A stretch of DNA of 64,000 nucleotides from Buxus sempervirens. Taxonomy: Eukaryota > Streptophyta > Magnoliopsida > Buxales > Buxaceae. The translations under genes were made by a program, and so were the position numbers. The first letter of the stretch is position 1. The number at the start of each line of letters is the position of its first letter. Under the pieces are notes generated by a model. It worked only from the letters and a program-made list of their open reading frames with translations. It was not told the origin of the DNA and did not search any database. The DNA is taken from assembly GCA_947561395.2 (NCBI GenBank), contig OX387193.1:9858001-9922000 (forward strand), written 5' to 3'. Positions 1,884 to 64,000 of this stretch are shown here, piece after piece.

Positions 1884-1984
1884 TCAGAGAATGGGAATGG
1901 GAGAGGTAAGTTGAAAGGACTGGAAGAGATCAGAGTTTGGCAAGTTGAGAGGAGGAAGAGAAAGGTGACTGTAAGTAGAACATG
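1884..1984 (-). pseudogene. displaced 3' end of the SPX gene's last exon
   Basis: Reading minus from 1979, 31 sense codons and a TGA (1884-1886) continue exactly in frame from the SPX exon cut at 7393. They begin SSTYSHLSLPPLN when joined to the preceding serine and end PIPIL, the style of tail found in plant SPX-only proteins (SSTYS, then LPPL/LPPM). The piece is separated from the rest of its gene by the copia element. Bases 1980-1984 (ACATG) are one copy of the target duplication. With the element present this segment cannot be translated as part of SPX unless the whole insertion is spliced out. Confidence 0.9.
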
Positions 1985-2620
1985 TGTTGTGGTGAAGTCC
2001 CACCACTTGTGAATGATTTACCTAATACTTTGAAGTTCAAACAAACCAACAAAGTAATGATAATACACCAAAGCACACAAACAAAGTGTAAACTAGCCAC
2101 TAAGTGTGTAAGAAAATGAAATAGAAGCACAACCACAAACAAGAGACGAGATTTAACGTGGTTCGGCACTAAGGCCTACATCCACGGGCAATCCGGCAAG
2201 ATGGAACTCCACTATCAATGCAAAAGATTACAACAAGAGAGGATTTAGAAGACTTACCTCTCTACAAGCTTGACACATAAAACATTCACCCAATCCCACA
2301 ATATGCAACCTTCCACAATATGTTTGTAACCCCAAACAATTATGAAAGAACCCCCAAATAACTTGGAACAAACCTTGCAAGAGATGGAATGGTGAAAACC
2401 CTTGTCTCTTCTCTTTTTCTCTCCTCTTCTTCTCACTCTCTCTCTTAATAGAACCCCATCTAGTGTCTTATAACCCACATGAGAGAGCCCCTCTCATGTA
2501 CCACACTAATGGTATATAAACTTTATTGCTACTATTTACATGAATACCCTCATATAAAGTAACAAGTCCCAAGAGAACAAAAAAACATAAGGAGAAGTGA
2601 TTTTATATCACCTCTCAACA
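1985..2620 (-). repeat. 3' LTR of the copia element
   Basis: This 636-base copy begins TGTTGTGG and ends CTCTCAACA on the plus strand. Compared with the other LTR I count about seven substitutions, one 1-base length difference in an A run, and absence of a 15-base tandem duplication. Confidence 0.95.
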
Positions 2621-2631
2621 ATCTCCACCTT
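2621..2631 (-). other. polypurine tract of the copia element
   Basis: On the minus strand this reads AAGGTGGAGAT and directly abuts the 3' LTR, the expected position for priming plus-strand DNA synthesis. Confidence 0.8.
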
Positions 2632-2668
2632 GATAGAAAATCACCTTGCCATTGCCAAATCTACCAAC

Positions 2669-5600
2669 TCACCTTGGCATGATGCTTAGAGAAGTTAAGC
2701 TCCACTCCAACTTCTCTAGGGTCACTATTTTAGTCAACATGTCGGCTAAGTTCTCCTTGGTTCCAACCTTTAAGACTTGAATCTTCCCATCTTCAATAAC
2801 TTCCCGCACATAGTGATATTGGACACTAATGTGCTTAGTTCTTCTATGATACACCGGATTCTTAGCCAAACAAATAGCACTCATGTTGTGACAAAACAAC
2901 TCCATGGGTTTTGGACTTAAACCAATCTCACCCATAAGACCTTGAAGCCACACCGCTTCTTTGCAAGCCTCCGTTAATGCCATGTATTCGGCTTCGATAC
3001 TAGACAATGCCACCGTTGCTTGTAACTTTGACATCCAATTAATCGGACCATTTCCCAAGCAAAATACATACCCGGTAGTAGACCTTCCTTTGTCAATGTC
3101 ATTAGCATAGCTTGCATCAACATGTCCATGCATTTGTCTTGAATCCTTACCATATGTGATGGCATAGTTACTAGTGCCTCTCAAGTAACGAAGCACCCAC
3201 TTAGCGGCTTCCCAATGTGCCTTACCCGGATTAGCCATGAACCGACTCAAAACTCCAACCGCATAGGAAATATCCGGCCTTGTACATACCATAGCAAACA
3301 TTAAGCTCCCTACAAGACTAGCATAAGGAACTTGGCTCATTTTCTTCTTTTCTTCTTCGGTCTTTGGACATTGTTCCAAAGATAACTTGAAATGAGGTGC
3401 TAGTGATGTCTTCACAGGCTTAGACTTGTCCATGCTAAACCTTCCAAGAACCTTCTCAATGAACCGCTCTTGTGAAAGTGACAAAGTCCCATTCTTTCTA
3501 TCCCTTGTAATTTCTATCCCAGGGATATGTGTAGCCGGCCCGAGATCTTTCATCTCAAATGCCTCACTCAATTGTGCCTTTAGCTCTTGAATCTTAGACT
3601 TATCCTTACCCACAAGCAACATGTCATCAACATACAAGACCAACATCAAGTAAGTGCCATCTTCAAGTACCTTCATATAAACACAATGATCATATTGACT
3701 TCTTTCATAACCAAGGCCCAACATGAAGGATTCAAACTTCTTGTACCATTGTCTTGAAGCTTGCTTCAACCCATACAAAGACTTATTAAGTTTACACACC
3801 AATTCTTCCTTGCCTTCTTCAATGAACCCTTGAGGTTGCTTCATGTAAACCTCCTCCTCAAGGTCACCATGCAAAAATGCGGTTTTCACATCCATTTGTT
3901 CAAGCTCTAAATTAAACATAGCAACTAAAGCAAGAACCAAACGAATAGAAACAAGTTTAACAACCGGTGCAAAGACTTCAAAAAAGTCAATACCTTCCTT
4001 TTGAGAAAATCCTTTTGCAACTAACCTTGCACGGTACTTTGTAATCTCTCCATCCTTACCTTTCTTGAATTTATAGACCCATTTGCCCCCAACCGCTTTT
4101 CGCCCCTTTGGTAGTTCCACCAACTCCCAAGTTTTGTTCTTGTGAAGTGCATTCATCTCTTCACCCATAGCTTGCTTCCAACCTGTAGAGTCACTACCAT
4201 TAATGGCCTCTTCAAATGTGCATGGTTCACCATCTTCCGTGATTAAAGCCCTCATTGTAATAGGATCAACACAATCTTCAAGTCTTGATGGTAAATGCCT
4301 TTCACGTCTTGGACGTTCTTGAGATAGTGGTGGTTGTAGTTGTTCATGTTGCCCATTATCTTCTTGAGCTTCAACATCTCCATCAACCACTTCTTCATTA
4401 GGAGTTACATTTTCCGGAATAAAACCACCCGGAATAACTTCAAATTGCTCCACCTCATTTTGACCTTCTTCCATGGTAGGCTCCAAAGTCTTGTTTAGCA
4501 TTCTCGATTCATCAAAGTGAACATCACGGCTATGAATTATTTTACGAGAAACCGGATCCCATAAACGGTATCCTTTAACATTCTTTCCATAACCAACAAA
4601 GATGCACTTTCTAGACTTTGGATCTAATTTATCCCTTTGACAACTAGGAATCAATGTATATGCATCACATCCAAATATTTTCAAATCAGAATAATCACTA
4701 GGAGTTCCATGCCATACCTCTTGAGGTGTTTTCTCTCCCAATGTCGCCGAAGGTGATCTATTCACAAGGTAGCAAGCCGTGTTGATAGCTTCCGCCCAAA
4801 ACTCCTTATCAAGACCCGCATTGCTTAACATACACCTTGCACGTTCCACCAAAGTTCTATTCATACGCTCCGCCACCCCATTTTGTTGAGGGGTTCTAAC
4901 AACGGTATTATGCATGACAATTCCTTCATCTTTGCAAAAATTGAGGAAAGTATTGTTCACAAATTCTAAACCATTGTCGGTTCTAATCACCTTGATGCTT
5001 CTTCCACTTTGTTTCTCCACCTCGGCTTTGAAATGCTTGAATGCAATGAAAGCTTCATCCTTTGTCTTCAAGAATGTCTCCCATACCCTCCTTGAATAAT
5101 CATCAATGAAAGATATGAAATAAGATGCACCACCATGTGATTTAGTGCGAGATGGACCCTACAAATCCGAGTGAACATAATCAAGTATGTCTTTGCTAGT
5201 ATGACTCCCGGCCTTGAAGCTTCTCCTATGATGCTTGCCATAGACACAATGCTCACAAAATTCTTTATCACCAAAGCACATCTTAGGAATAAGTTCCTTT
5301 TTCATCAAGATGTCCATACCTTTTTCACTCATGTGACCCAACCTTCTATGCCAAAGCCGAACCGGATATTCATCATGGTCAACCGCCACTTGTGCACCAT
5401 CTACAATTGTGCTTCCAAGCAATTTATACAAGTTTCCAACCCGGATGCCTTTCATAACAATCAAAGCACCCTTAGAAACTTTAATCACTCCACCTTGTCC
5501 GGTGTACTTGTAGCCACAAGAATCAAGTTCCGATAGTGAAATCAAGCTTTTCTTCAAATCCGGTACATGCCTTACATTTTCAAGTGTTCTAACATTGCCA

Positions 5601-6655
5601 TCAAACATCTTGAGTTGTACCACACCAACACCCACAATATGACTAGTTGAGTTGTTCCCCATCAAGACATATCCACCATCACATGGCTCATATGAGCTAA
5701 ACCATGACCGATGTGGACACATATGATGAGTAGCGGCGGTATCAAGAACCCAATTTTGATGATAAATAGGACTACTACTAGCCATAAATACCTCATCTTC
5801 AATGGATCCGGATATTGATTCTTCCACTTGATTGGCTTCACTTTTGGTCTCGCCTTCATTCTTCTCTTTTTCATATTCTTTACTTGAGTTGGAACCCTTG
5901 CCTTTTCTAAAGTAGCAATCTTTCTTCAAATGCCCTTTCTTACCGCAATTCCAACAAGTACCTTTTTCAAACCGGCCTCTTGACTTTGAACGGTGACTAT
6001 ATTTCCCCCTTGAAATGCTTCTAAATGATCCACCACGCTCATTAGGATGTCCTCTTATAGTAAGAGCCTCCATTCCTACCTCCAATGATGCATGCCTTCT
6101 AGATTCATCGGCAAACAAGGCACTAGTCACATCATCAAAAGTGAGTTTATCATCCTTGGAACAACTTAGAGTTGTAACCAGGTTGTCATAACTATCCGGC
6201 AAAGTACATAACATGGTCACCGCTTTATCTCAATCCTTCATAGGTTCATCAATGCTTTCAAGTTGACCAATAATGTCATTAAAAGTGCTCAAGTGCTCGG
6301 AGATCTTGGTGCCTTCTTTCATCTTCAAAGAATATAACTTCTTCTTTAGAAGAATTATGTTGAGTAGAGATTTGGTTTGATACAAGCTCTCAAGCTTTGC
6401 CCACAACTCGGATGCCGTCTTCTCACCTTTTATATTAAAGATCACATTATCCGCCAAACACAAGCGAATAGTAGAGACCGCCTTCATATCCATTTTTAAC
6501 CAATCCTCTTTGCTCATAGTGGATGGCTTTTCACTTATACCAAGTAAAGCTTCCTCTTGCCCATTTTGCACCAAGACATCATACATCTTAATCTTCCATA
6601 GCTCAAAGTTATTTCTTCCATTAAACTTCTCCACCTCAAATCGGTTGCTTCCCAT
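2669..6655 (-). pseudogene. copia gag-pol polyprotein with two in-frame stops
   Basis: One frame runs from the ATG at 6655 to a stop at 2669, about 1.33 kb of codons, broken only by TGA at 6230-6232 and TAG at 5159-5161; there is no frameshift. Domains in order: gag (starts MGSNRFEVEKFNG); a CCHC zinc knuckle (CWNCGKKGHLKKDC); a protease region with WVLDTAATHHM where DSGA-like motifs are usual; GAG-pre-integrase (LWHRRLGHMS); integrase core with TDNGLEF and RTPQQNGVAER; reverse transcriptase with YVDDMLLVG; and an RNase H region (DASYAND). The gag stop follows EPMKD and the second follows YVHSDL, just before the integrase core. Order and motifs are diagnostic of Ty1/copia. The two nonsense codons would stop polyprotein synthesis. 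Confidence 0.95.
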
Positions 6656-6726
6656 TTTACTACACTTTTACTCACTTAGGCAATTTCACAAACACCTTGT
6701 TCACACTTTCTTCATATAACCCGGAA

Positions 6727-6739
6727 GCTCCGATACCAC
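6727..6739 (-). other. primer-binding site (initiator tRNA-Met type)
   Basis: The minus strand reads TGGTATCGGAGC, matching the usual plant copia site TGGTATCAGAGC except at one base. It lies one or two bases inside the 5' LTR. Confidence 0.88.
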
Positions 6740-6740
6740 T

Positions 6741-7392
6741 TGTTGTGGTGAAATCCCACCACTTGTGAATGATTTACCTAATACTTTGAAGTTCAAACAA
6801 ACCAACAAAGTAATGATAATACACCAAAGCACACAAACAAAGTGTAAACTAGCCACTAAGTGTGTAAGAAAATGAAATAAAAGCACAACCACAAACAAGA
6901 GACGAGATTTAACGTGGTTCGGCACTAAGGCCTACGTCCACGGGCAATCCGGCAAGATGGAACTCCACTATCAATGCAAAAGATTACAACAAGAGAGGAT
7001 TTAGAAGACTTACCTCTCTACAAGCTTAACACACAAAACATTCACCCAATCCCACAATATGCAACCTTCCACAATATGTTTGTAACCCCAAACAATTATG
7101 AAAGAACCCCCAAATAACTTGGAACAAACCTTGCAAGAGATGGAATGGTGAAAACCCTTGTAGAGAAAACCCTTGTCTCTTCTCTTTTTCTCTCCTCTTC
7201 TTCTCACTCTCTCTCTTAATAGAACCACATCTAGTGTCTTATAACCCACATGAGAGAGCCCCTCTCATGTACCACACTAATGGTATATAAACTTTATTGC
7301 TACTATTTACATGAATACCCTCATATAAAGTAACAAGTCCCAAGAAAACAAAAAAAACATAAGGAGAAGTGATTTTATATCACCTCTCAACA
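6741..7392 (-). repeat. 5' LTR of the copia element
   Basis: This is a 652-base copy. The 16-base length difference from its partner is explained by a 15-base tandem duplication (GAAAACCCTTG-type unit near 7150-7175) plus one A. Because the host gene runs the same way, polyadenylation of the truncated SPX transcript may occur here, and the first LTR bases supply its new stop codon (TGA at 7387-7389). Confidence 0.95.
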
Positions 7393-8469
7393 ACTTGTTT
7401 GCCGCATCTCTCGCATGGTTACCAAAGCAGCAACTGTATTCCTGAAAATGCCATGACCAGTCATGGTTATTGCCTCCTTTTCCCCTTTTTCTTGATCACT
7501 TTGGCCTTCTTCATGTCTGACCGGAAATACTGCATCAATGGTGCTTTCACATTCCTTTATGAGCTTCAACACAAGATCGGTTCTAAAGAAGGGCTGTTGC
7601 AACACTTTCTTAATGAATGGCATCCGCAGCAACGTGCCGGTTCGCTTATCATACTTCTTCAAGATCTTAGCCAATCCTACAACACAAAACAAAATTTCTA
7701 TTATGTTTTAAATTTAGTCAATCAATAAATTGAAACCAGTTCATCATATGTTCTTGAGCTTTGCAGGTTTTCAATTTGTCTCCCCTGTTCAGGCTTTGTA
7801 ATTCAAGTAACTCTGGTTTGCAATATATGAAACAAGACACAAGCTTAAAGCTTCCTGGGTACCTGTGTAATTGATATTGCTATAGTTCACTAAAAGCACC
7901 ATTTCTCCATGTAAATTAATAATGTCCTTTCTGATCTTCCCCATTTCTTCTCTGTAATCATCCTCGGACGGCCGACTCCCGTTCGGACCCCATGTATCCA
8001 TAACCACCTGGATTCTCTGTTGTAACTCCTGCAAATCAAGAACCCCATTTTCACAGACATCACAAATGAAAAACTGGGGTGCTGTTAAGTAGCCTATATC
8101 CACATTGTTTTATCTACCGCATACATTGACAAATTCTACATTGAAGGTCCAAAAATGTGTTTTCTGATAACAAGTTCTATGTTTCAAACACCCCAAAAGA
8201 TTGAAAAGAACAACACTTACTTTATGGCGAATGATGAAGTCTTCTTCTTGCTCAACGAAAAAGGCATTAAACTTGTCAATCTCAATGTTCAACAAGAACA
8301 CAAACTTTGCTTCATCCTTCCTTGGATATGGCAGCTGCCCCTTAAATGATGATGAAGCAGAAGAGATAAGCCTAACAAGCCTCTTCAAATCCTTGTAGGA
8401 GACAAACTTGTCGCGCCACTCGGGCAATGTCTCATGCATTTGGTGTTTGAGTCTCTTTCCAAATTTCAT
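7387..8469 (-). CDS. SPX: SPX-domain protein (SPX1-3-like), C-terminus truncated by a copia insertion
   Basis: SPX-only proteins bind inositol pyrophosphates and restrain PHR transcription factors when phosphate is sufficient. Exons (minus): 8469-8221, 8028-7863, 7676-7387, with GT-AG borders and consistent phases (0, then 1). The protein starts [20 protein letters not shown], the canonical SPX start. Y25 and K29 (SYKDLKR), and the lysine cluster in [14 protein letters not shown] (about residues 139-152), match the conserved basic ligand surface; [16 protein letters not shown] follows. The native protein would be 264 residues. The insertion after MREMRQTS replaces the last 31 codons with Cys and a stop inside the LTR, giving 234 residues. 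The SPX fold looks intact, so partial function is possible. I choose SPX1-3-like over SPX4-like from the N-terminus, with moderate certainty. Confidence 0.93.
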
Positions 8470-8614: not shown

Positions 8615-8622
8615 GCATATGC
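8615..8622 (-). promoter_or_regulatory. P1BS element (PHR-binding site), proximal copy
   Basis: GCATATGC fits the palindromic consensus GNATATNC bound by PHR1-type MYB factors. It lies 146 bases upstream of the SPX start codon. SPX genes are classic phosphate-starvation targets of PHR, so position and gene identity support each other. Binding is inferred. Confidence 0.72.
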
Positions 8623-8669: not shown

Positions 8670-8677
8670 GCATATTC
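8670..8677 (-). promoter_or_regulatory. P1BS element (PHR-binding site), distal copy
   Basis: GCATATTC also fits GNATATNC and lies 201 bases upstream of the SPX ATG, 55 bases from the proximal copy. Confidence 0.7.
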
Positions 8678-9055
8678 TCGTGTTGTTCACACGTTACTTT
8701 TAAAAGCTTCTCAACGACTTCCAAGGTTATTATTATTTATATGAAGCATGACTGAGGAAAAAGGAAAGGAATATGGAGGGGCTGATGCCATGGAATCTCC
8801 TCAGAATCTCCCACTGGAGGGGAAATTTAGTACATAGATTTCACACAGAAAGGCTCTTGCCTGTCGGAGTAATCAAACGAGGAAATGAACATGATCAAAA
8901 GAAACCTTGGAGATGCTTTGTGTTCTAGAAAAGGGTCCCACTGATTGGTGGCAAGAACAGCAGATAAGTCATAAGCAAGAAGCTTTGGGGATTTATAGTT
9001 CAATCTCCTATAAAAAGATCAAATATATAGTGGAACCTAAACGGTACCAAGGCTG

Positions 9056-9125
9056 ATGCCGAATTTTACAACTGTGATTACAGCCTAATTATGCCGAATT
9101 TTACAACTGTGATTACAGCCTAATT
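9056..9125. repeat. 35-base perfect tandem duplication
   Basis: Two adjacent identical 35-base units, each starting ATGCCGAATTTTACAACTG, occupy 9056-9090 and 9091-9125. They lie about 590-660 bases upstream of the SPX start. The perfect identity implies a recent duplication. No function is evident. Confidence 0.9.
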
Positions 9126-9200
9126 GTGCTTCACAAGCATCTTCCTCCATGTAAGATAAAAGGTTGTACATCTGTGACTGTTTTAACAGCCCAATTGGAT

Positions 9201-10053
9201 TAAGATTGCAACTTGGTTCGGTTTACCGACCCAAAAGTTGGTTTGGTTTTTCAAAACAGACCCAAAAGCTTACGGTTCGGTTTTGATTCTAAAATCTATA
9301 AATTGAATTAATTTTGGTTCGGTTTTGAGTTGATAATTAAACTAAACCAAAACCCAACTTAAGAATATGCTTCACGAAATTGAACCAAACGCAACATATA
9401 TACGAAAAATTGGTTTGGTTTTTGGCTTGGAGTGATTGATTCTCAATTTGACTTTGTTCAACTTTGGGTTACTAGTCAAAAACCTTGGTTTGATCTAAAC
9501 TCACGATACTAATGGGGCAAGTTAAATGGGTAACTTGCTCGCGGCTCATGGTAAAGGTTTCGTATTTTCAAAATTGAGTTAGGAATGGTTCGGTTTTGGC
9601 CAAACCAACCCTGCCCAGAACCTGCTTTTAATCTATTAAAATATCATTTTTATATGATTAAAAAAATTATTTTCATATCTATAATTTTTTTTTATCAGTA
9701 AATGAGCAGATTTTATATATTGGTAAAAATAGGAACTGTAGGTACACAAACTGTGTACCATAGCTAACCAATACAATTTAGTCTACCTCCCTCTCAATAC
9801 TTTCATATCTATAATATATAAAAATACATACTTTATTAATAAATGTATTATTAATTTTTATATTCTATTTAAAAAAAATATTTTTATGCATTCTATAGTA
9901 TGATCGGGTCATCCTAACCCGCCCTGTTACCAACCCAATAAGGACAGGTTAGGGTTTGGTATTAGCTAAAACCTTACGAGGGTTCGGATTTACCAAAACC
10001 CACCCAGAACTTGCCCTGTTGCCATCCCTAGTCTGAATTGAGTCGCACCCATA
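9201..10053. mobile_element. GGTTCGG-family TIR element, copy 1, interrupted by a hAT MITE
   Basis: The left end reads TAAGATTGCAACTTGG; the right end read inverted gives TATGGGTGCGACTC, an imperfect terminal inverted repeat shared with the copies at 10406 and 52077. The interior is rich in TTCGGTTTTGG and its complement. A hAT MITE (9580-10035) splits it near the right end: the sequence after the MITE (GAGTCGCACCCATA) is the expected end of this family. No target duplication of its own could be identified. Confidence 0.65.
9580..10035. mobile_element. hAT-type MITE nested in GGTTCGG copy 1
   Basis: The left end is TAGGAATGG and the right end is CCATCCCTA, matching the ends of the well-preserved MITE at 59419. 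The 8-base sequence AATTGAGT stands directly before the left end (9572-9579) and again at 10036-10043, after five extra bases (GTCTG) following the TIR. An 8-base duplication is the hAT signature; the extra five bases are unexplained. Confidence 0.72.
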
Positions 10054-10405
10054 GTGAGCATCAAATGGGTAAGATTATGGATTGGCCACAAAGAGAGAGA
10101 CTATGTCCATGCTAATGCTTGTATGACAGTCTTTAATTGATCTTCCACGTCTCCATCAATGTACACAGAGTCAAGCTCAACCCTGCCCTCTTTTTGGGTT
10201 CCTGTTTGATAGCCACATCAAGTTGCAAGTCCTAATTTCAACATATAAAAGTTGAAAAGGCCACATCCCTGGTCCCTCCCTATAACAACTTTTTGACAAA
10301 ATTGACTTCTAAAAAAATGAGTTTTTTTTAGCTGGACCAGGGATGGTGTAAGGCTGTGAGCTTAGAGAACTTAACGTCAGACTGGAATGTTGTGAGCGCG
10401 ACAAC

Positions 10406-11884
10406 CAGGAATGCAATTTGGTTCAGTTAAAACCGTGAACCTGATTGGCCTGGGTTTCAAAGCATATGGTTTAGTTTTGGGTTTGAAAATCTATCTAATT
10501 AGGTTTGGTTTGGTTTTGAGTTGATATTTTGATTGGACTTAACAAAACCGAACAGAAACCTGACTTAAAATATGCTTTAATAAAATGGATCAACCTTATA
10601 TACATATTATTGGTCCCAAATTGGTTCTTGCGTGTCACGTGGCCATGGGGACGATGTGTCTTTGTATGGGCGTGCCAGTATCTTTCGATACAATGATTCG
10701 GGTCGGATCCTGACCCCGAGCACCTGTTCTGGATCTAAACTAACGTTGGTCTAGCCGTACTGCAAGTCACCTGTAATAAAATGGATCAGACGATAAAATG
10801 AAGACTATGGATTTGATCTTCGTTTTGGTTCTTATTTGTGTTTGAAAGCAATAGTAAACAATAAAGAAGTATTTTTATTTAGGTATCGGTCGCTCGAAAT
10901 GCCACCGTTAATTACAACAAAGCCTCAAAAGGAAATAAAACAAAAGAAAACCAACTGGGTCGGCAAGACTAGCCTCCCCTGACCTTATAGCCGTGATCAA
11001 AGTATAAGGAAAAGAGGTAGGGGCGGCTGCTAACGAAGTCAATTTTGGGGTTCACCCAGGAGTACTACTTAGCCATTGTCTTAGCAATCACCTGGTCTTG
11101 ACTAAAGATGGTCTCGAGACAGGCTGCTCGTAACCCTATAGCCGTAATCAGAGTATAGGATTAGAAGTCAGGGGGGGCCGCAACCTCCTTGCAGGTGGCA
11201 GGGTCTTTACCTTAACTGGAGTAACTAGTAGCCTAAAGTGTCATTACAACAGGGAGCAGTGAGAGAAGTCCTAAATTATCCTTTCCTGCTACAGTTTGAG
11301 TATAGGAGATTGGATAGTGATCACGGATGATCGAGTTATAATCATAATAACTAGTTGTGATTGAGTGGAGGTTGTCCTCGAGCTCTTCGAGTCAGTGCCT
11401 TTTATAGCGGATTCTAATGGTTGCTACCGGCTCACGTTCGCACGAACTCTGCTTCTGTTCTGGTAGTTATTCATCGGTTTCTTCTTATCCATGTGAGATA
11501 ACTTCTTTGCCACGTTCACAAACTAATAACCTCCTCGTCGTTGCCCAACCGCATCCCCCGTCAATCATGTGTTGATGGTAACATCACCCCTTAAACGTGA
11601 GAGCACGGTTGTCTTATGTGCTTACTTTGCTTCGGCTAAAGGTCTAACCCATGTAGATGCTGATGCGGTCTACCTTATTGAATTAGGCCATGTAGATGCC
11701 ACGTGGCCTCTCCTTATTTGCTGGTCTATGGAGGGTGTAAACACATATACATTATATTTAGTTTTTGGGTTGGAATAATTGGTTCTTAATTTGGTTCAGT
11801 TTGGTTTTAGATTAATAGTCACGAACATCAATTTGGTCTTCGGTTAATGTCAACCCAGACCAGACCAAACCGAGTTGCACCATA
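10406..11884. mobile_element. GGTTCGG-family TIR element, copy 2, interrupted by a probable solo LTR
   Basis: The left end (AGGAATGCAATTTGGTTCAG) and right end (CGAGTTGCACCATA) form the family's imperfect inverted repeat. The body aligns by eye with copy 1: a ...GAGTTGATA... stretch, then ...ATATGCTT..., then the segment where a foreign block of about 1.1 kb begins. After that block the family sequence resumes (TTTTTGGGTTGGAATAATTGG). Confidence 0.65.
10608..11743. mobile_element. probable solo LTR
   Basis: This block of about 1.1 kb is more GC-rich than its surroundings and begins and ends exactly where GGTTCGG copy 2 is interrupted. CATAT occurs immediately before it (10603-10607) and after it (11744-11748), a 5-base duplication typical of LTR elements. 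The right end is ACA; the left is TATTGG, which would be canonical TG with one G-to-A change. It contains no long coding frame and two related internal motifs (CTTATAGCCGTGATCA and CTATAGCCGTAATCA). The superfamily is unknown. Confidence 0.55.
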
Positions 11885-12270
11885 GTAGCGACCACGGTTT
11901 GAAATCCTAAAAATAATACCCGTATTCATCATGATTAGAATTATAAATGGGTGGGATTTGGTTCGGATCTATCATGATCGAAATTCAAAATCCGAATAAG
12001 TTAATATCCAAATCCGGTTAAATATCCAATTGATCCTTTATATATGTTGTAGAATTCAAATTTAAATATATTTTTAAAATCCATATTGATTTTAAATCCG
12101 ACAATAAATCTGAAATTTGATTAAGTGGTTTATTTTTAACACTAGTCCACAAAATAGTACGATGACTCTAAAATATTATACCTCTACAAAAGCTAATTTA
12201 ACAACTTTAACCCTAGAGTTTTTATAATGCATGCATACAACTATATAGAAGGCCTAATAGGTCTTAAGAA

Positions 12271-12458
12271 TCTATACTATTAATAAAGAGAAAAGGGAGG
12301 AATATTCCCACAAGATTCTGGCCCCCTTTTTCTTTTCCAAACATTGTCCTACCCTGAACAAAATAATCCCCCCATTATTTTAAACATGTTGTAACTACCT
12401 CAAGCTGTTTATCTAAGTGGGCACACGTTTTCTACGCACGTAACGCGTACACCCCTAA
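12271..12458 (+). mobile_element. short non-autonomous Helitron A
   Basis: It begins TCTATACTATTAATAAAG and ends CCCCTAA, the TC...CTRR pattern of Helitrons. It is preceded by A and followed by T, as expected for insertion between A and T without target duplication. A 5-base stem (TACGC/GCGTA, loop 7) lies six bases before the end. Length is 188 bases with no coding capacity. Confidence 0.75.
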
Positions 12459-12526
12459 TATAAAATAATCAGTAAGATATTTATCGAATATATGCAAATC
12501 TAGGTTTGAATCTAAACAAATCCAAA

Positions 12527-12771
12527 TCTATACTATTAGTGAAGAGAACTGGAATAATATTCCCCTAAATTCTAGTCCTCCCTTTTCTTTTTAAAAGATT
12601 TTCATTCACAAATGAAAAAATCCCTAGCTATAACGACTCCGCCACAACTCGCTAACTTATGACTTTACAAATTATCATATCAACATAACCGAACCGCATG
12701 GATTTGAACTCTTGCTGAAATTGTATCTAAGTGGGTCCCACGTGATTTACTACACGCATGCAATCCCCTAG
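12527..12771 (+). mobile_element. short non-autonomous Helitron B
   Basis: It begins TCTATACTATTAGTGAAG and ends CCCCTAG, flanked by A and T. A small stem (CGTG/CACG, loop 8) sits about 12 bases before the CTAG end. Its start and its AATATTCC...CCCTTTTCTTTT interior match Helitron A, so the two belong to one family. Confidence 0.75.
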
Positions 12772-13549
12772 TATTACATGAAGCTAATAGATCTATTTGG
12801 AGATCCATATTCCACCCATTGGCAACTATAAATCATGATGTTGTGGCCAATATTTCAAACATCGGAACTAACAACAAAAACACTCTACAGCGATGTACAC
12901 AAAATTTAGGAAAAAGGAAAACGAAATGAAACTAGGTGGTGTGACATGGCTCCTTTGAAACCTTTCGCGCATTTTTATATCAAATTAGTTTGACGAAGAT
13001 GGTGGCTAGCATCCAATGGTTAGGACTTTTTCTTGTTACAAATGTGCAGTGTGTTATAAATCCTCCATAATGGATGGATGACCATTCATCTTCTATTAAT
13101 CCTTCATAATGAGTGAATATTCATCTTCCCACCTCTTCAAATTTCACCATCAATAGACTTGGTATTTCTTGGAATTTCTAACCTTTGAAATTCTTTAGTG
13201 AATCTTTCATCTATTATATGTTTACATTCATTTACCTTTTTCTTTTCATATTCTTGTAATTATAACTCTAAGTCTATAAAAGGGGATATTGAGGAGAATA
13301 AAATATACACAGAAATAAGAAAGAAAATAATAAATCACATAAAGGAACGAAAAGTACTAATATTTCTGAAGAACTACTTTCTTGTAATATTATGTTTTAT
13401 TTTGTTTTCTTCTTCTTTCTTTCACAATATTTTTTTTCTTTTGGTACGTTGAAAAAACCTCAACCGTTTGAATGCTAAAAACAGATGCACGAGAACATTG
13501 CCGAGAATGTTCATGAGACGGTTTCATCTGGTGCCACTTAGTAGTACTA

Positions 13550-14128: not shown

Positions 14129-17100
14129 ATGGATTCCAAGCAGTTGATCGACTCACTCACGGCTCACATCGCTCTCTACCACTCTTCTTCCTCTCTCTCA
14201 ACCTCTCAGTCTCAACCTCCTTCCGCAAACCCTAGAGCTTCGATTCTCCGTTGGTTCGCATCTCTCGCGGTTCACCAACGACAATCCTATCTCACCATCG
14301 TCGATGCGAAATTCACAGAGATCCTCCTTCAAATGCAGCGCAAGATCCGTCAGAACGGTCACGGTTTCTTCATAATCCTTCCCGATCTTCCATCTCGTGA
14401 TCGTCCCTCGCTGCCTAGCCTCTGTTTCAGAAAATCGCGAGGTTTATTAGCTAGGGCTAGCGCATCGGACGAGTTGGAACGGTCGGTGTCGCGTGCGGTT
14501 CGGATGTTCGGTTCGAGGGAGGGAGAGAGAGTGGAGGAATGTTCGTGTTCTGTGAGTGTTATTGATACGGTTACTGTTTCTGAGGAATTTGTGAGAGATT
14601 TGGACCGTTTTGTTGAGGTTATGGATAGGGTTTCTAATGGAGGATTTCTGAGGGGCGAGGACGCTGCGTTGGGCTCTAGTTGGGAGGAATTGCCATGGTT
14701 GAAGGCGAAAGGGTATTACAGTATGGAGGCTTTTGTCGCCAACAAGTTGGAGCTGGCTTTGAGATTGGCTTGGTTGAACTGTAATGGAGGGAAAAAGAAA
14801 GGAGCAAAGTTGAAAGAGAAGACGAGCGCTGCAGGTGTGGCTGCGAACGTTTACTGGAGGAAGAAGGGGTGCTTGGATTGGTGGACCGGGTTGGATCTTA
14901 GTGTGAGAAAGAAGGTACTTCGGATGAGCTTAGGCAAAGCAGCCAAATCTCTGGTACTTTTCAGAACTTGGCTCTTCAATATGGTCTTCATTCTTCCTTT
15001 TTCGATGCGACATTTCAAGCCTCCAGAAATGTGATTAAAATGCCAAATGGTTCTTAGTTCTGTTCAAAAAAATGATGAAAGTGTTATCATGTTGTAAAAC
15101 AGAGAGACGTTTTTAATGCCAGATTTTTAGGCATTATTGGAGCACAAATTCTTAAGGAAAGAGCATTTCTACTGTGGCTGGAAGATTTTAAAACTTACAA
15201 GTACTCTTTTTTTCCCTCAACATTACAATCTGATCAATGGTTAGGCAAAATATTATTAACTTCTTTTGTAAAAACCATTAAAGACCAGCTGATCTAAAGG
15301 AAATTCAATCATGCTTTATCTTGTCAAGGATGTATCCATTGATTGACAAATATTTGAGCGTCAAATCTTGACCAAATCCTTTTCTGCTGCATTAAAAATG
15401 ATCCTGTTCAAAAGTGCGCTTCCAAATTCTGATTGTTTATAAAATAGAAGGAAATACACGGTCTTACGCCCTCTTCCTTGAATTATGTACAACTGGGATT
15501 AAGTGATGCAGGGGAAAGTATGTTATTGTACTATTTTCTTGTTCATGTCATTTATTGGGATATATCTGGAGAGATGAGCAGGAGGATCTTTGAGGGTGTG
15601 AGAGTTAAAATCTGATACATTTTGTAGAGAGTGACAGTTATGACAGCCCAAGCAGCTAGTGTTAGGGATTGTTGTGTCAAATATTTTGAGTGGACCACAA
15701 TAGCATATTGAGCACCTCACATGGACTATGGAGCAAGTATGCATTTTACGGTGGTCTCAAGAGACTGGGTTTTCAACTCTAATTTTGGTGGCTACTCTTT
15801 TGGAAGCTTTGGGCCTTTAAGGATTGAAGTTTTTGGAGATTATGATGACTACATCGTACATGCATTTCTGGGACCTAGTTTAGAGGGTGGCAGGCTAAGA
15901 TGTTTGCCTTAATGATGGGCATGATGCAGCAAGATCTTTATGTATTAGTATTAATGTAATGGAGGGGGATTAAGCTACATTTGTATCTTGACCGGCTACT
16001 TCTTGGAGTTGGCTGTGGAGGTAGCACACAAGGTCCAGTTGGCTGGATCAGTCTCTTGAGAGAAATTTATTGTATCTCTTTTGAGGTGTGGTACATAAAG
16101 AATTATTAAAGATACCAAACTTTTTATTCTTGCTATAAATTGGACAACTTCTTACTTGTGATCTTTGAATCCTCTTTTGTATGTTTCTTCCCAACTGAGC
16201 CTCAATGCATCCTGCTTCCGGCGAAGAATTTTGCACCTTTCATGTTAAATTCTGAAAAAAATCAGGTTTTGGCAGCATGGAATTGCAGCAGAGGAGGATC
16301 GCGGTATGAGATTCTATGAAACCTGTCACTAGCGGCAATTATATGGTCGCTACAGAAACAGAGGAATAGGAGAATTTTGTATGATATAATATCTCGCTGA
16401 CCATGGGCTTTATTGGAGTCTTCTATTAGCTGTCTTATGCATTTGGCATCTAGTAGGGAATCATGCAAAGGGTTAGAACGTCCAGAGTTTCTTAATTGTG
16501 AAAATTTTCTAGATTTGTAGGTGCTGGTCCTTTTTGCTGCTCCAGTACGCTTTTCTTGTACTTGTATTGCCTATTTGGGCTGCCTTCACTTTACCCACAT
16601 CTTTAAGACCTGAATTTACCTACCTTCTTAAGGATAATGTGGTGTCACATTCGTTGTTGAAGCTTAAAGCAGTGGCATAATCAAATAAATAGAAATCTTG
16701 TGCATCAGGAACTTAGAGTGTCTGCATGAGCCATCATATCTTGATTATAATAACAAGGAAAAATAAATTTTACATGCACATCCAAAGTGCCAGCAACAAT
16801 TCTGGTTTATTTTGTAAATTGCATGAAGAAAATGGAACCACTTGCAAATTAGAGGGTGTCAGTGCAAGAGTAGGGAAGAATCAGTATCTCACCTACTGAT
16901 TCGCTGTTCTGTGGCCAGCAAACTATAGACATCAATTATTAAGAGGTTGGGTTCAGCCAAAAAAAGCTCAGGGTTGTTCTAGAAGTATGGAGTTCAAAGA
17001 ATCGTAAGTCAGGGTAGTGTTTGGCGTGCCACCGAAATTCCCATTTTTTTGAGTTTGCGATGCATTTCGTAGGAGGAAAATCGCCGATTTGCATTTCTAG

Positions 17101-38937: not shown

Positions 38938-39137
38938 NNNNNNNNNNNNNNNNNNNNNNNNNNNNNNNNNNNNNNNNNNNNNNNNNNNNNNNNNNNNNNN
39001 NNNNNNNNNNNNNNNNNNNNNNNNNNNNNNNNNNNNNNNNNNNNNNNNNNNNNNNNNNNNNNNNNNNNNNNNNNNNNNNNNNNNNNNNNNNNNNNNNNNN
39101 NNNNNNNNNNNNNNNNNNNNNNNNNNNNNNNNNNNNN
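38938..39137. other. assembly gap (200 N)
   Basis: Exactly 200 N, probably a fixed-size scaffolding gap. True length and content are unknown. Confidence 0.99.
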
Positions 39138-57100: not shown

Positions 57101-60100
57101 GAATACCTCAAAATCAAAACGAATGAAAATATTGCACGTTAAGACCAAGTATACTGGATGCAAGTGTACAACAAATGACAATGGGAGTTAAACAAAGATG
57201 AGAATCAAGAACAAGTCACTTTCAAAAATAACTATTTCCACAAAGTATTATGTGTTATGCAGCCAACCTATTCCACTCAAGCCAAAAGAAATATTTTCCT
57301 AAGATGTTTGTTAGGCCTGTTGTGATATATGAATAGAACGTTGGACAACATGTTAGGAATGGAAGTTTATGATTGAGAGTAGCCCCAACAGGAGAAAAAT
57401 AAAATAGGTTGAGATGGCATGTTGAAGCTTTTTGTGTACGTGACTTGAATTCAGTCAGTGTTTAATATGGGCCTTACTGCACACTCAGCCTCAGCTTTCG
57501 CGAGTCGAGCTCCGTGGTGAACTCGCTGGGGGGTTTGCAGGGGGGCCTGGTGGAGCCCCGAGGAACCGTATGAGGGGTATTTTTGTAATTTAGGTGTCAC
57601 TTGTATAAAACCCAAAAGCTAGGGTTTCTTGTCGTTATGTTGAGATATTGTGTTGCTTTCGGCCAGGAGAGGGTTGTGTCTTTGTAACCGTATTTTTCAC
57701 AGATTATAGTGAAAGAACCCCATCATCCGTGGACATAGGCATTTTTACCGAACCACGTAAATTGCGTCTCTTGTTTACTTTAGTTTCTGTTTCTCATTTT
57801 TATTGCTGTTCATTTTCACTACAAAGCTGATGTTATTCTAGAAACTCCCATACTGAATGAAGAGAAAAGTAACTTCTCCAAAAATAACACTTTACTATGT
57901 ACTGAAGCTGTCATTCAATGTACCAAAATAATAAAATATTAACACTAAATTACAGGCAAAGGATGAGTAGATATTAAGACTTATGGGTCATCTTCTTGGT
58001 TTGTGAGATTAAAAGCATTTTAAAATTTTCATTGTATGTACCTCAAAAAATTAATCTTATTCCTTCATTCCAAGCCATTCCTATCAGATTCCTTAATGTT
58101 GTCTATCCCAATATAATATTACACCCTCCATTAAGTTCACTTTACTAGCTTCCGTTAATTATCAGTTATGAAATTATAAATAAAACAAAAGCAAGCGTTG
58201 TTTGATAATGAACTCACATATGCAAAGCACAGAAGTAACGTATACAAATAAAAATGAACTAGGTGAACACTCTCAATGCCTAGTGATTTACTGCCCAGGA
58301 GTTGTATGGGCAAACCTATGTGTCTACTTGGATGCCACCATTCCTAGCCATGTTACTATCACCCACTAGGCCCCAGTGCCAAAGTGAAGTAGTTAACCAT
58401 GCAATGTTATGACCCCACTGGTGGAGAATGGCAAGAAACAACCTTTAAAGGTTCTAATCCTCATCAAAAAGTCAGCACCAAGCAGAAGCTGCACTCAGTT
58501 TGTGAGTCACTATACCAACTAAGAGGAATCAATACCTCAAAAAATAGCAACATCAGGACAACCTTACACAAAAATTAATCACATTTTATTTCTACAGGGG
58601 ACCTCAAAAGGACCAAAGGTAATAGGGGCTTGAAATCTAAATAAAGGTAGGGTAAAGGAGCTACAAATGTTTCCGGATGAAGTTTTGAGATCATCTTGGA
58701 ACTTATGGGGCTTGAATTTAGTTTATATAAGGGTGGTATTAGAGCAGAAACTGTGGCACGTTTGACCAACATCCTTTTCTTAAAAGAAACAAAGATGGAA
58801 GTGTTAGACACTAAGGGTTATGGTAGAAACAAAGATGGAAGTGTTACACACAAAGATAGAAAGATTTTTGAAGATATTGTTAGCGGTCAGGAGCTAATTC
58901 TCGACAAAATAATGAGTATTGCAGCAGGATGGATATCGATCTCAGCCAAATGGATGGAATATGGAGTGGGGGACATCGTTAGGAATTAGGAGGCTTTAAT
59001 AAGTTAAGATTGGAAGGCAAGAATGTGTCGTAAGGAAGCATAGTTGGCTTGGTTGCTGTCTCTCTCTTGTTGATTGTTGTTGTTGTTGTTTTTGTTTTGG
59101 CTTGCCTGTTTGGGTGCTTCCCATCTCTCATGGGAAGCTTCCTATCTCTATACTTTTCTCTCTAGTTTCCCTCTTTCCTTTGTTTCTAATATATCATACT
59201 CATTAACGATAAAAAAAAAAGGGGGTTATGGTAGAAATCTGGGTAGGGGTTGAATGGTTTACCTTTTCCAGTGCATAGAAGCTGCTGGGTGAATCGCAAT
59301 GGGTTGAATGGAAGGATAATTAGAATTAGCCAACTATGCTAAAGTGTTATTCCATATCTAACAGAAATTAATTATGGTTTAATCTATACATAGGGGCTGA
59401 AAAATAGGTGACCTTGATTAGGAATGGCAATGGGGAAGGTTCGAGGCAGGTTTTGGCAAACCCGAACCCGCCCCATCAAGGGTTTAGGTGATACCAAACC
59501 CTAAACCGCCCCTATCGGGTCGGTAGCGGGGCTGGTCGAGGTTGCCCCCGATTAATGATGAAGCCATAAAAAACAGCTTTTTTAAAAAAAAATGTATAAT
59601 TAATAATATAAGTATTAATAAAATATGTACTTTTTGCATAATATATACATATATAAAATATGCTTTTAATATTTAAAATATTTAAAATAAATTAAGTCCG
59701 GGTCGGGATGGGTTGGGCTAAACCCTAACCCGAGTTTGGCTATACCAAACCTGCCCATTGCCATCCCTAACCTTGATGGTTCTAACCCTTATACCGAAAT
59801 CTCGATACCTGATTCCAAAGGATATTCCTCCTGTAAATATTGTTGCACCATATTTGAAGTGTTTCCTTGCCTGCCCATGCCCTTCGGAAAACTAGGCTGC
59901 TCCCCAGTCAAAGCTTTTGTTTGGACAAACCTTCTTTACAATGTCAATTCCGCCGATATATCATAGGGAAGAAGAATATATACAGCTCTCCCACCCAGTA
60001 TTTATTTCATATGTATGTCTCATTCAGATATAGTCATTTTTTCACTATGTTTCATTCAGAGGAGTGGGGGCATGGTTGGCAATAGTGGCAAAGAGGAGGA

Positions 60101-62956: not shown

Positions 62957-64000
62957 TTAATCGGATACCTCTAGAATATTTGACCCAGGTTCATCCATTT
63001 TGGTATCAAGCCCAGGCAAGGCAACGTTATCAGCAGAGGCGACTCCATGCTCCGGAACCAGAGGATCTTCTTCTGGATCTTCTTCTGGACCTTCTTCTGC
63101 TGCTGGAAGAACTTGTTTGGCTACTGCATTGGTATTATCAGAAGGTTCCACAATAGAGTTTTCCAGGGGAGGATCATGCTGTAAACCATTGTTCTCATAC
63201 TTGGTATCCACGGCCCCAGAATTTTGGGGTACTGGCTCTGCTGTAGCAGACTTCTGCTGAGCATCATCTTCAACTGTACCAGCAATCTGGCTTCCAGGTT
63301 CCTGAGCAACTTCCAATCCTTGAGTCTCTAAATCTTGCTGTGTTTGAATCTCTGGATCTGCTGCTGCATCTTGTTGAGCTTGGATCTCTGTACCTGCTGC
63401 TTCAGCTTCTTGAACTTGGATCTCTGAACCTGCTGGTTCGGCTTGCGGAACTTGGATATCTGAACCAGCTGCTGCAGCTTGTGGAGCTTGGATCTCTGAA
63501 CCCGCTGCTGCAGGTTCTGGAGCTTGTATCTGTGAACCAGCCTCTGTGACTTGGGGAGCTTGTATCTCTGAGCCTCCCACTGCCGGTGCTTGTTGAGGTT
63601 GGATATTCAAACTTGCTTCCACCTGATAAGGTTGGATTCCTGCACCTGCTGCAGCTGCTTGTTGAATTTGGATTTCTGAAACTCCTGCTGCTTGTTGAGC
63701 TTGAGGGGCCATGTAAGTGGCTGGACGGGGAAAGAAGCCATGAGGAGCATAAACAGGTTGATGATGAACTGGTGGAGCAAAGTAAGTTGGTTGGGCATTA
63801 GGGTGAGGAGGGTAAAGAGCTTGAAGCCCCACCGGCCCAAACATTGCTTGGTGGCCGTGGAATCTCTTAAGCTTGGAAAGGTGCTTTTTACCAGCCAGAT
63901 GACAGTCAAAGACAGCTTGGGTGTCACACTTAACATTGCACAAGTCACAGATTAAGGGAATCACCTCTTTGGGCTTGGGAGGTTCAACCTGCCTCCTTGG
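62957..64000 (-). CDS. C2H2 (zf-met/U1-like) zinc-finger protein, 5' part beyond the right edge
   Basis: The frame is open to the window edge, so the N-terminus lies outside; the visible part ends with LEVSD and TAA. Near the edge is a C-x2-C-x12-H-x5-H finger (CDLCNVKCDT...CHLAGKKH), spaced like the zf-met class of RNA- or dsRNA-binding fingers, followed by KHLSKLKRF. Then comes a Pro/His/Tyr-rich stretch (YPPHPNAQP, PPVHHQPVYAPHG), a run of Gln/Ala-rich 12-residue repeats, and an acidic tail (EEGPEEDPEEDP). Function is unknown; nucleic-acid binding is inferred from the finger only. Upstream codons (RRQVEPPKPKEVIP) suggest continuing coding sequence, not a start at the GTG. Confidence 0.85.
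   Translation of the reverse strand, partial: PRRQVEPPKPKEVIPLICDLCNVKCDTQAVFDCHLAGKKHLSKLKRFHGHQAMFGPVGLQALYPPHPNAQPTYFAPPVHHQPVYAPHGFFPRPATYMAPQAQQAAGVSEIQIQQAAAAGAGIQPYQVEASLNIQPQQAPAVGGSEIQAPQVTEAGSQIQAPEPAAAGSEIQAPQAAAAGSDIQVPQAEPAGSEIQVQEAEAAGTEIQAQQDAAADPEIQTQQDLETQGLEVAQEPGSQIAGTVEDDAQQKSATAEPVPQNSGAVDTKYENNGLQHDPPLENSIVEPSDNTNAVAKQVLPAAEEGPEEDPEEDPLVPEHGVASADNVALPGLDTKMDEPGSNILEVSD
63344..63559 (-). repeat. six 36-base coding repeats in the zinc-finger gene
   Basis: Six in-frame 12-residue units in a row (for example APEPAAAGSEIQ, APQAAAAGSDIQ, VPQAEPAGSEIQ) share the ending G-S/T-E/D-I-Q. Less regular units precede them. Being a multiple of three, the number of units can change without breaking the frame. 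Confidence 0.9.

Follow-up and report, generated by a model that had tools for sequence, protein, structure and literature searches.

Structure of the interrupted SPX gene

What becomes of an SPX phosphate-sensor gene when a retrotransposon lies within its last exon? The question is raised by the window analysed here, a stretch of 64,000 nucleotides (positions 9,858,001–9,922,000 of contig C19), which was studied together with searches of the whole assembly (676.5 Mb, 247 contigs; judging by gene content, presumably that of a plant). The original prediction placed a copia element in the last exon of an SPX gene on the minus strand, and this placement was confirmed nearly to the base. The parts of the gene are as follows.

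8221–8469, minus strand: SPX exon 1, from the ATG (78% identity to the sister gene on contig C9, residues 1–83)
7863–8028, minus strand: SPX exon 2 (GT/AG borders, open frame)
7393–7676, minus strand: SPX exon 3, portion 5' of the element (GT/AG border, open frame, homology)
7387–7392, minus strand: TGT TGA, Cys codon and stop of the interrupted gene, the initial six LTR bases
1884–1979, minus strand: displaced terminal 31 codons and stop of SPX exon 3 (frame, homology)

The interrupted gene consists of three exons separated by GT/AG introns, and as the genome reads it is translated into 234 residues ending T-S-C-stop, the Cys codon and the stop being supplied by the LTR, as had been proposed. 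Removal of the element and one target-site copy lets the frame of 7676–7393 run on into 1979–1884, giving a 264-residue protein whose stop ends at 1884, whichever copy is retained; both of the predicted lengths were thus reproduced by translation. Use of an alternative AG 3 bases away (exon 2 from 8025) keeps the frame and gives 233 and 263 residues. Relative to the rejoined form, the interrupted form has its last 31 residues swapped for a single Cys.

Pfam analysis of the SPX protein returned PF03105 (SPX) as the sole match (E 1.7e-24), with no EXS, MFS or RING domain, the domain content of a class I (stand-alone) SPX protein. The conserved C-terminal tail, a common trait of class I rather than part of its formal definition, is absent from the interrupted protein, having been displaced by the element. 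An open run of 31 codons is weak evidence by itself, because 398 of the 1883 start positions on the minus strand of 1–1979 (21%, displaced fragment included) and 432 of 4408 in 9000–13500 (10%) are equally open. The fragment is recognised as the true SPX tail because the uninterrupted exon 3 of the C9 sister gene covers query residues 137–264.

The sister gene and the displaced tail

The C9 sister encodes 263 residues and is uninterrupted through the insertion site. It is identical to the rejoined C19 protein at 204 of 263 aligned residues, ending RSSTYSQFSLPPLNLPDSDLIQSLQHPSLIPIL where the displaced C19 fragment reads STYSHLSLPPLNLPNSDLFQSFQLTSPIPIL. An orthologue with a tail unlike the displaced fragment had been named in advance as a refutation of the finding; within this genome the C9 tail matches the fragment at 23 of 31 residues, and the SPX loci on C21, C11 and C15 carry an SST motif at the start of their tails (SSTV or SSTY), so the displaced C-terminus is, as predicted, a real conserved SPX tail. 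SLPPLQ also occurs in the C21 and C11 tails. Comparison of C19 with C9 gave a dN/dS of 0.12 overall, with 0.10 in the retained codons and 0.32 across the 31-codon tail; these values are rough, since dS is 1.1 overall. An Arabidopsis SPX1 sequence, taken as background, also aligns through SST.S..SLPPL, and its tail score was reached by 9 of 20,000 shuffles. Because a stretch near 59461 (plus strand) scores 45 against the Arabidopsis tail, when the top score at the true site is 48, that score alone is not decisive, and the sister gene decides.

We take the C19 and C9 sisters to be SPX3-like, and the C15 gene is presumably SPX4-like. When the assembly was searched with the protein, 15 matches at exon level came back, and none of them was another near-identical C19 gene. 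Nor was a shared block found around the C19/C9 pair: nothing near the C9 gene matches the neighbouring ORF at 14129–15034, and blastn against a 29.7-kb piece of C9 returned 8 matches, comprising 4 SPX exon pieces and 4 elsewhere, with no collinear gene. This ORF encodes 301 residues and matches no Pfam family at E 0.01; its matches in the assembly are one full-length match, which is itself, and four partial ones on C19 and C1. Elsewhere among the SPX loci, C169:18500–26300 matches C15:38484000–38490500 at 96% over 1963 bases covering the start of the SPX gene, and looks like a recent duplicate or haplotig of the C15 locus.

The inserted element and its target site

The element lies in the same orientation as the gene, with the following parts.

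1985–7392, minus strand: copia element
6741–7392, minus strand: 5' LTR, 652 bp
6230–6655, minus strand: gag part, Retrotran_gag_2 (Pfam, E 9.9e-24)
5159–6220, minus strand: gag end, zinc knuckle, Pol_BBD and GAG-pre-integrase, separated from the preceding gag part by an in-frame stop
2669–5071, minus strand: integrase core end (rve, below cut-off), SH3-like domain and RVT_2 (E 1e-77), with an in-frame stop upstream of the ORF
1985–2620, minus strand: 3' LTR, 636 bp
7393–7397, minus strand: target-site copy on the gene-upstream side, ACTTG on the plus strand; its AGT codon is also the sister gene's
1980–1984, minus strand: target-site copy on the gene-downstream side, ACATG on the plus strand, one base different

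It is a Ty1/copia LTR retrotransposon. Both LTRs start with TG and finish with CA (TGTTG...CAACA). Two short motifs were called by eye: GTGGTATCGGAGC after the 5' LTR, which we take to be an initiator-tRNA-Met-type primer site, and AAGGTGGAGAT before the 3' LTR, presumably the polypurine tract. The domain order is copia-type (Retrotran_gag_2, zf-CCHC, Pol_BBD, gag_pre-integrs, SH3_retrovirus and RVT_2, all above cut-off), with integrase upstream of reverse transcriptase, the rve integrase core scoring 20.9 against a cut-off of 32.6. Two in-frame stops interrupt gag-pol, which makes this copy, as read, non-autonomous; an intact gag-pol marks self-sufficiency, not Ty1/copia membership.

The near-identical 5-base flanks and complete LTRs of the original prediction were both recovered, the target-site copies agreeing at 4 of 5 bases, as a 5-bp duplication with one mismatch. 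Since the sister codon is AGT, like the upstream copy, the mismatch probably arose after insertion in the downstream, now non-coding copy.

Alignment of the two LTRs revealed 7 substitutions in 636 bases (K = 0.011, ~1.1%), plus one 15-bp and one 1-bp indel. The corresponding age is 0.43–0.79 My at rates of 1.3e-8 and 7e-9 (95% Poisson range at 7e-9, 0.32–1.6 My), or 2.2 My at a slower rate of 2.5e-9, all three being general rates that may not be those of this plant. The family comprises at least 40 LTRs at 95–100% identity, this one included (40 of 200 candidates scored), and five other nearby LTR pairs differ by 0, 1, 4, 4 and 5 substitutions. The pair with 5 substitutions is a candidate single element only, with a spacing of 7189 bp versus ~4770; the four sibling pairs spaced 4769–4774 bp have identical outer flanks (5/5 bases). 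Given these pairs, the C19 insertion is recent, as the word "young" had implied, without being among the very youngest of its family.

The LTR pair was also checked for mosaicism, which would invalidate the age, against 29 family copies, picked as best matches to the 3' LTR, a selection that favours the 3'-LTR state. At 5 of the 7 substitutions all 29 copies show the 3'-LTR state and none of them has that of the 5' LTR, the pattern that changes arising after insertion would leave. At the remaining two sites the rarer state occurs in 4/29 (5'-LTR state) or 1/29 (3'-LTR state). The 15-bp gap of the 3' LTR was found in 3/29 copies and may be recurrent or converted. Fifteen of the 29 fetched LTRs are flanked by identical 5-bp repeats in a solo-LTR-like arrangement (one flank, AAAAA, is little informative), and LTR–LTR recombination therefore seems common in this genome.

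Elsewhere in the window, a copia-LTR remnant at 57560–57788 is 82% identical over 51 bases to the LTR of this element and, across 235 bases, 76% identical to sequence lying ~12 kb past the SPX gene of C9. An ORF at 62957–63964 encodes a C2H2 zf-met zinc finger, its remainder being repetitive and Q/A/E-rich. A search of the whole window against Rfam at the gathering threshold gave no match.

The retained core and the lost tail

The nearest solved structures are those of rice SPX1 (7E40, E 6.3e-57) and SPX2 (7D3Y, E 4.8e-52), and the retained part of the C19 protein spans the whole region aligned to both. The rice structures were built from SPX1 1–198 and SPX2 1–202. The truncation point falls beyond these crystallised regions, after a 15-residue stretch that looks helical by inspection only. 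Inositol-phosphate contacts were mapped at rice SPX1 positions 1, 2, 3, 5, 25, 26, 28, 29, 31, 147, 150, 151 and 154, a list merging positions given in PMC8639918 and PMC8948245; the last four were equated with SPX2 143, 146, 147 and 150 through the common KILKKYDK stretch, by our own reading. Twelve of the 13 are identical in the C19 protein, the sole exception being R31, a contact in rice SPX2, which is replaced by Leu. Inositol-phosphate-dependent repression of PHR, a mark of class I proteins, is a putative activity of the C19 protein.

The PHR-contact positions were compared with mutants described in the rice work. R161A of rice SPX1 compromises stable PHR2 binding, and R161 is kept in the interrupted C19 protein. 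Ala mutants of V125 and V132 abolished PHR2 binding; the corresponding C19 residues are Ile and Val. Two positions are unlike rice SPX1, E135 (V130 in C19) and Y180 (L175), and PMC8639918 describes PHR2 binding as unaltered in E135A and Y180A. Residue 130, in exon 2, is Val in the C19 protein, Glu in the C9 sister, C21, C11 and rice SPX1 (the PHR contact E135), and Lys in C15.

For the C-terminal region itself, PMC8639918 describes InsP6-dependent PHR2 binding by rice SPX1 1–259 and calls this construct C-terminally truncated, whereas PMC13044247 calls it full length, so the two papers disagree. PMC13044247 also notes that ~60–80 C-terminal SPX residues are missing from both rice SPX–PHR crystal structures, that models place these residues across the PHR contact surface, and that, in its authors' view, the missing region could influence PHR binding. 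According to PMC10167327, the SPX domain of yeast Vtc2 is stabilised by a helix that follows its core, and the unstructured end is able to extend to the pocket that holds the ligand. On these grounds a folded, tail-less SPX protein with altered regulation appears the most likely product.

Promoter, transcript end and fate of the allele

Upstream of the ATG lie two promoter motifs, given without strand.

8615–8622: GCATATGC, P1BS-type site (GNATATNC), 146 bases from the ATG
8670–8677: GCATATTC, another P1BS-type site, 201 bases from the ATG

In the C9 sister, the nearest such sites start 171 and 246 bases ahead of the ATG. Across the whole window, P1BS-type sites occur near chance frequency (18 found, 14.05 expected). 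An AATAAA in the 5' LTR starts 91 bases past the first base of the SPX stop codon, so SPX transcripts may end there; with the native stop and 3' end now more than 5 kb downstream, past the element, termination within the 5' LTR is probable.

The most coherent account of the locus is that, of two sister SPX genes, one received a copia-family element in its last exon, in gene orientation and with a 5-bp duplication. The promoter region, start, splice sites and whole SPX core are kept, translation ends at once in the LTR, and the transcript probably ends within the 5' LTR. The likely product would be a tail-less SPX protein that still binds inositol phosphates and PHR, with its level, stability or regulation altered, and the resulting hypomorphic or mildly altered allele may be buffered by the intact sister and other SPX genes. 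Judged from the sequence, the insertion and its consequence for the reading frame are almost certainly as described. We lean towards the functional step, a tail-less SPX acting as a hypomorph or mildly altered allele, when it is taken by itself; near-normal function may also be the outcome. The account as a whole, from insertion to a buffered hypomorphic or mildly altered allele, is in our judgement likely.

Its chief rival is a null allele, in which the gene is becoming a pseudogene because its native 3' end is gone, because the LTR directs silencing or because the protein is unstable. We consider this the less probable outcome. In its favour, the 5.4-kb insertion leaves the native poly(A) side beyond the element, and the C9 sister, with like coding structure and promoter sites, offers redundancy. 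Against it, the full SPX core, the canonical splice sites and the P1BS-type pair remain, and the retained ORF carries no other damage, although at such an age this would also be expected of a dead gene. Since each LTR lineage has changed by only ~0.55%, little damage is expected either way, and the intact ORF says little.

Splicing of the element as an intron would keep the frame if the donor at 7422 (TG/GTAACC) were paired with the acceptor that precedes 1919 (TTCCAG), both of them present and in phase 0. The product would read ...VAAL-SFQLTSPIPIL, without the helix-like stretch near the C-terminus and with little of the tail left. We regard this as very improbable, the donor fitting just 5 of 8 consensus bases, the minimum for inclusion in our donor list (at least 5/8). 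The fragment's remaining acceptor, after which the exon would resume at 1968, is in phase 2, and its only listed partner, 7654, would delete most of exon 3.

Least credible of all is an assembly or haplotype artefact, with the element misplaced or present on one haplotype only: a 200-N gap at 38938–39137 indicates that the assembly is scaffolded, and part of the C15 locus seems to recur, as a duplicate or haplotig, on the unplaced contig C169, but there is no N between 1 and 38937, the target-site copies and coding frame fit both junctions in a way unexpected from a misjoin, and a search of the whole assembly for the uninterrupted C19 junction (up to 2 mismatches, for which the C9 junction is too divergent) gave 0 matches, revealing no uninterrupted allele.

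A natural allele that loses only the last 31 SPX residues, and whose undamaged sister is found in the same genome, would make a workable test case and could be one origin of variation in phosphate use. The further proposition that this is a natural, expressed tail-less SPX that senses inositol phosphates, with altered PHR release, stability or DNA binding, is more speculative, and we hold it doubtful. If it were so, comparing plants that carry the element with plants that lack it would probe what the C-terminal part of SPX absent from the crystals does.

Comparison with known systems

Insertions of LTR retrotransposons into plant coding exons are a known class of natural transposable-element alleles, and disruption of a coding exon in this way is a textbook kind of event, ordinary as transposable-element biology. 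The C19 gene resembles these alleles in its complete element, target-site duplication and LTR-supplied premature stop. It is set apart by its spared SPX core, the cut falling beyond the structured core, and by its target, a phosphate sensor. A literature search by title and abstract start, run outside most subscription journals, gave no transposable-element allele of any SPX gene among the matches listed; SPX tail deletions gave no match, and none of six SPX tail motifs was found in printed text. In a search for SPX and element relatives, IMG/VR, by description not a collection of plant genomes, gave no exact match; short patterns matched 12 and 37 stretches there and 142 in prokaryote genomes, likewise not plant by description, with no confirmed relative in either.

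Among SPX genes, the C19 and C9 sisters are alike in having three exons and P1BS-type promoter sites, features that the rice SPX1 and SPX2 genes are said to have as well. With the rice proteins of known structure (7E40, 7D3Y) the C19 protein has in common the SPX domain and the KILKKYDK stretch; in contrast to them, it naturally lacks the conserved SSTYS..SLPPL tail and has Val at the E135 position. Further parallels are the engineered rice proteins SPX1 1–259, SPX1 1–198 and SPX2 1–202, from which the C-terminal region was removed and the core kept, as in the C19 protein. Those truncations were made for stability or crystals and may end at other places than the C19 cut, whereas the truncation at C19 is natural.
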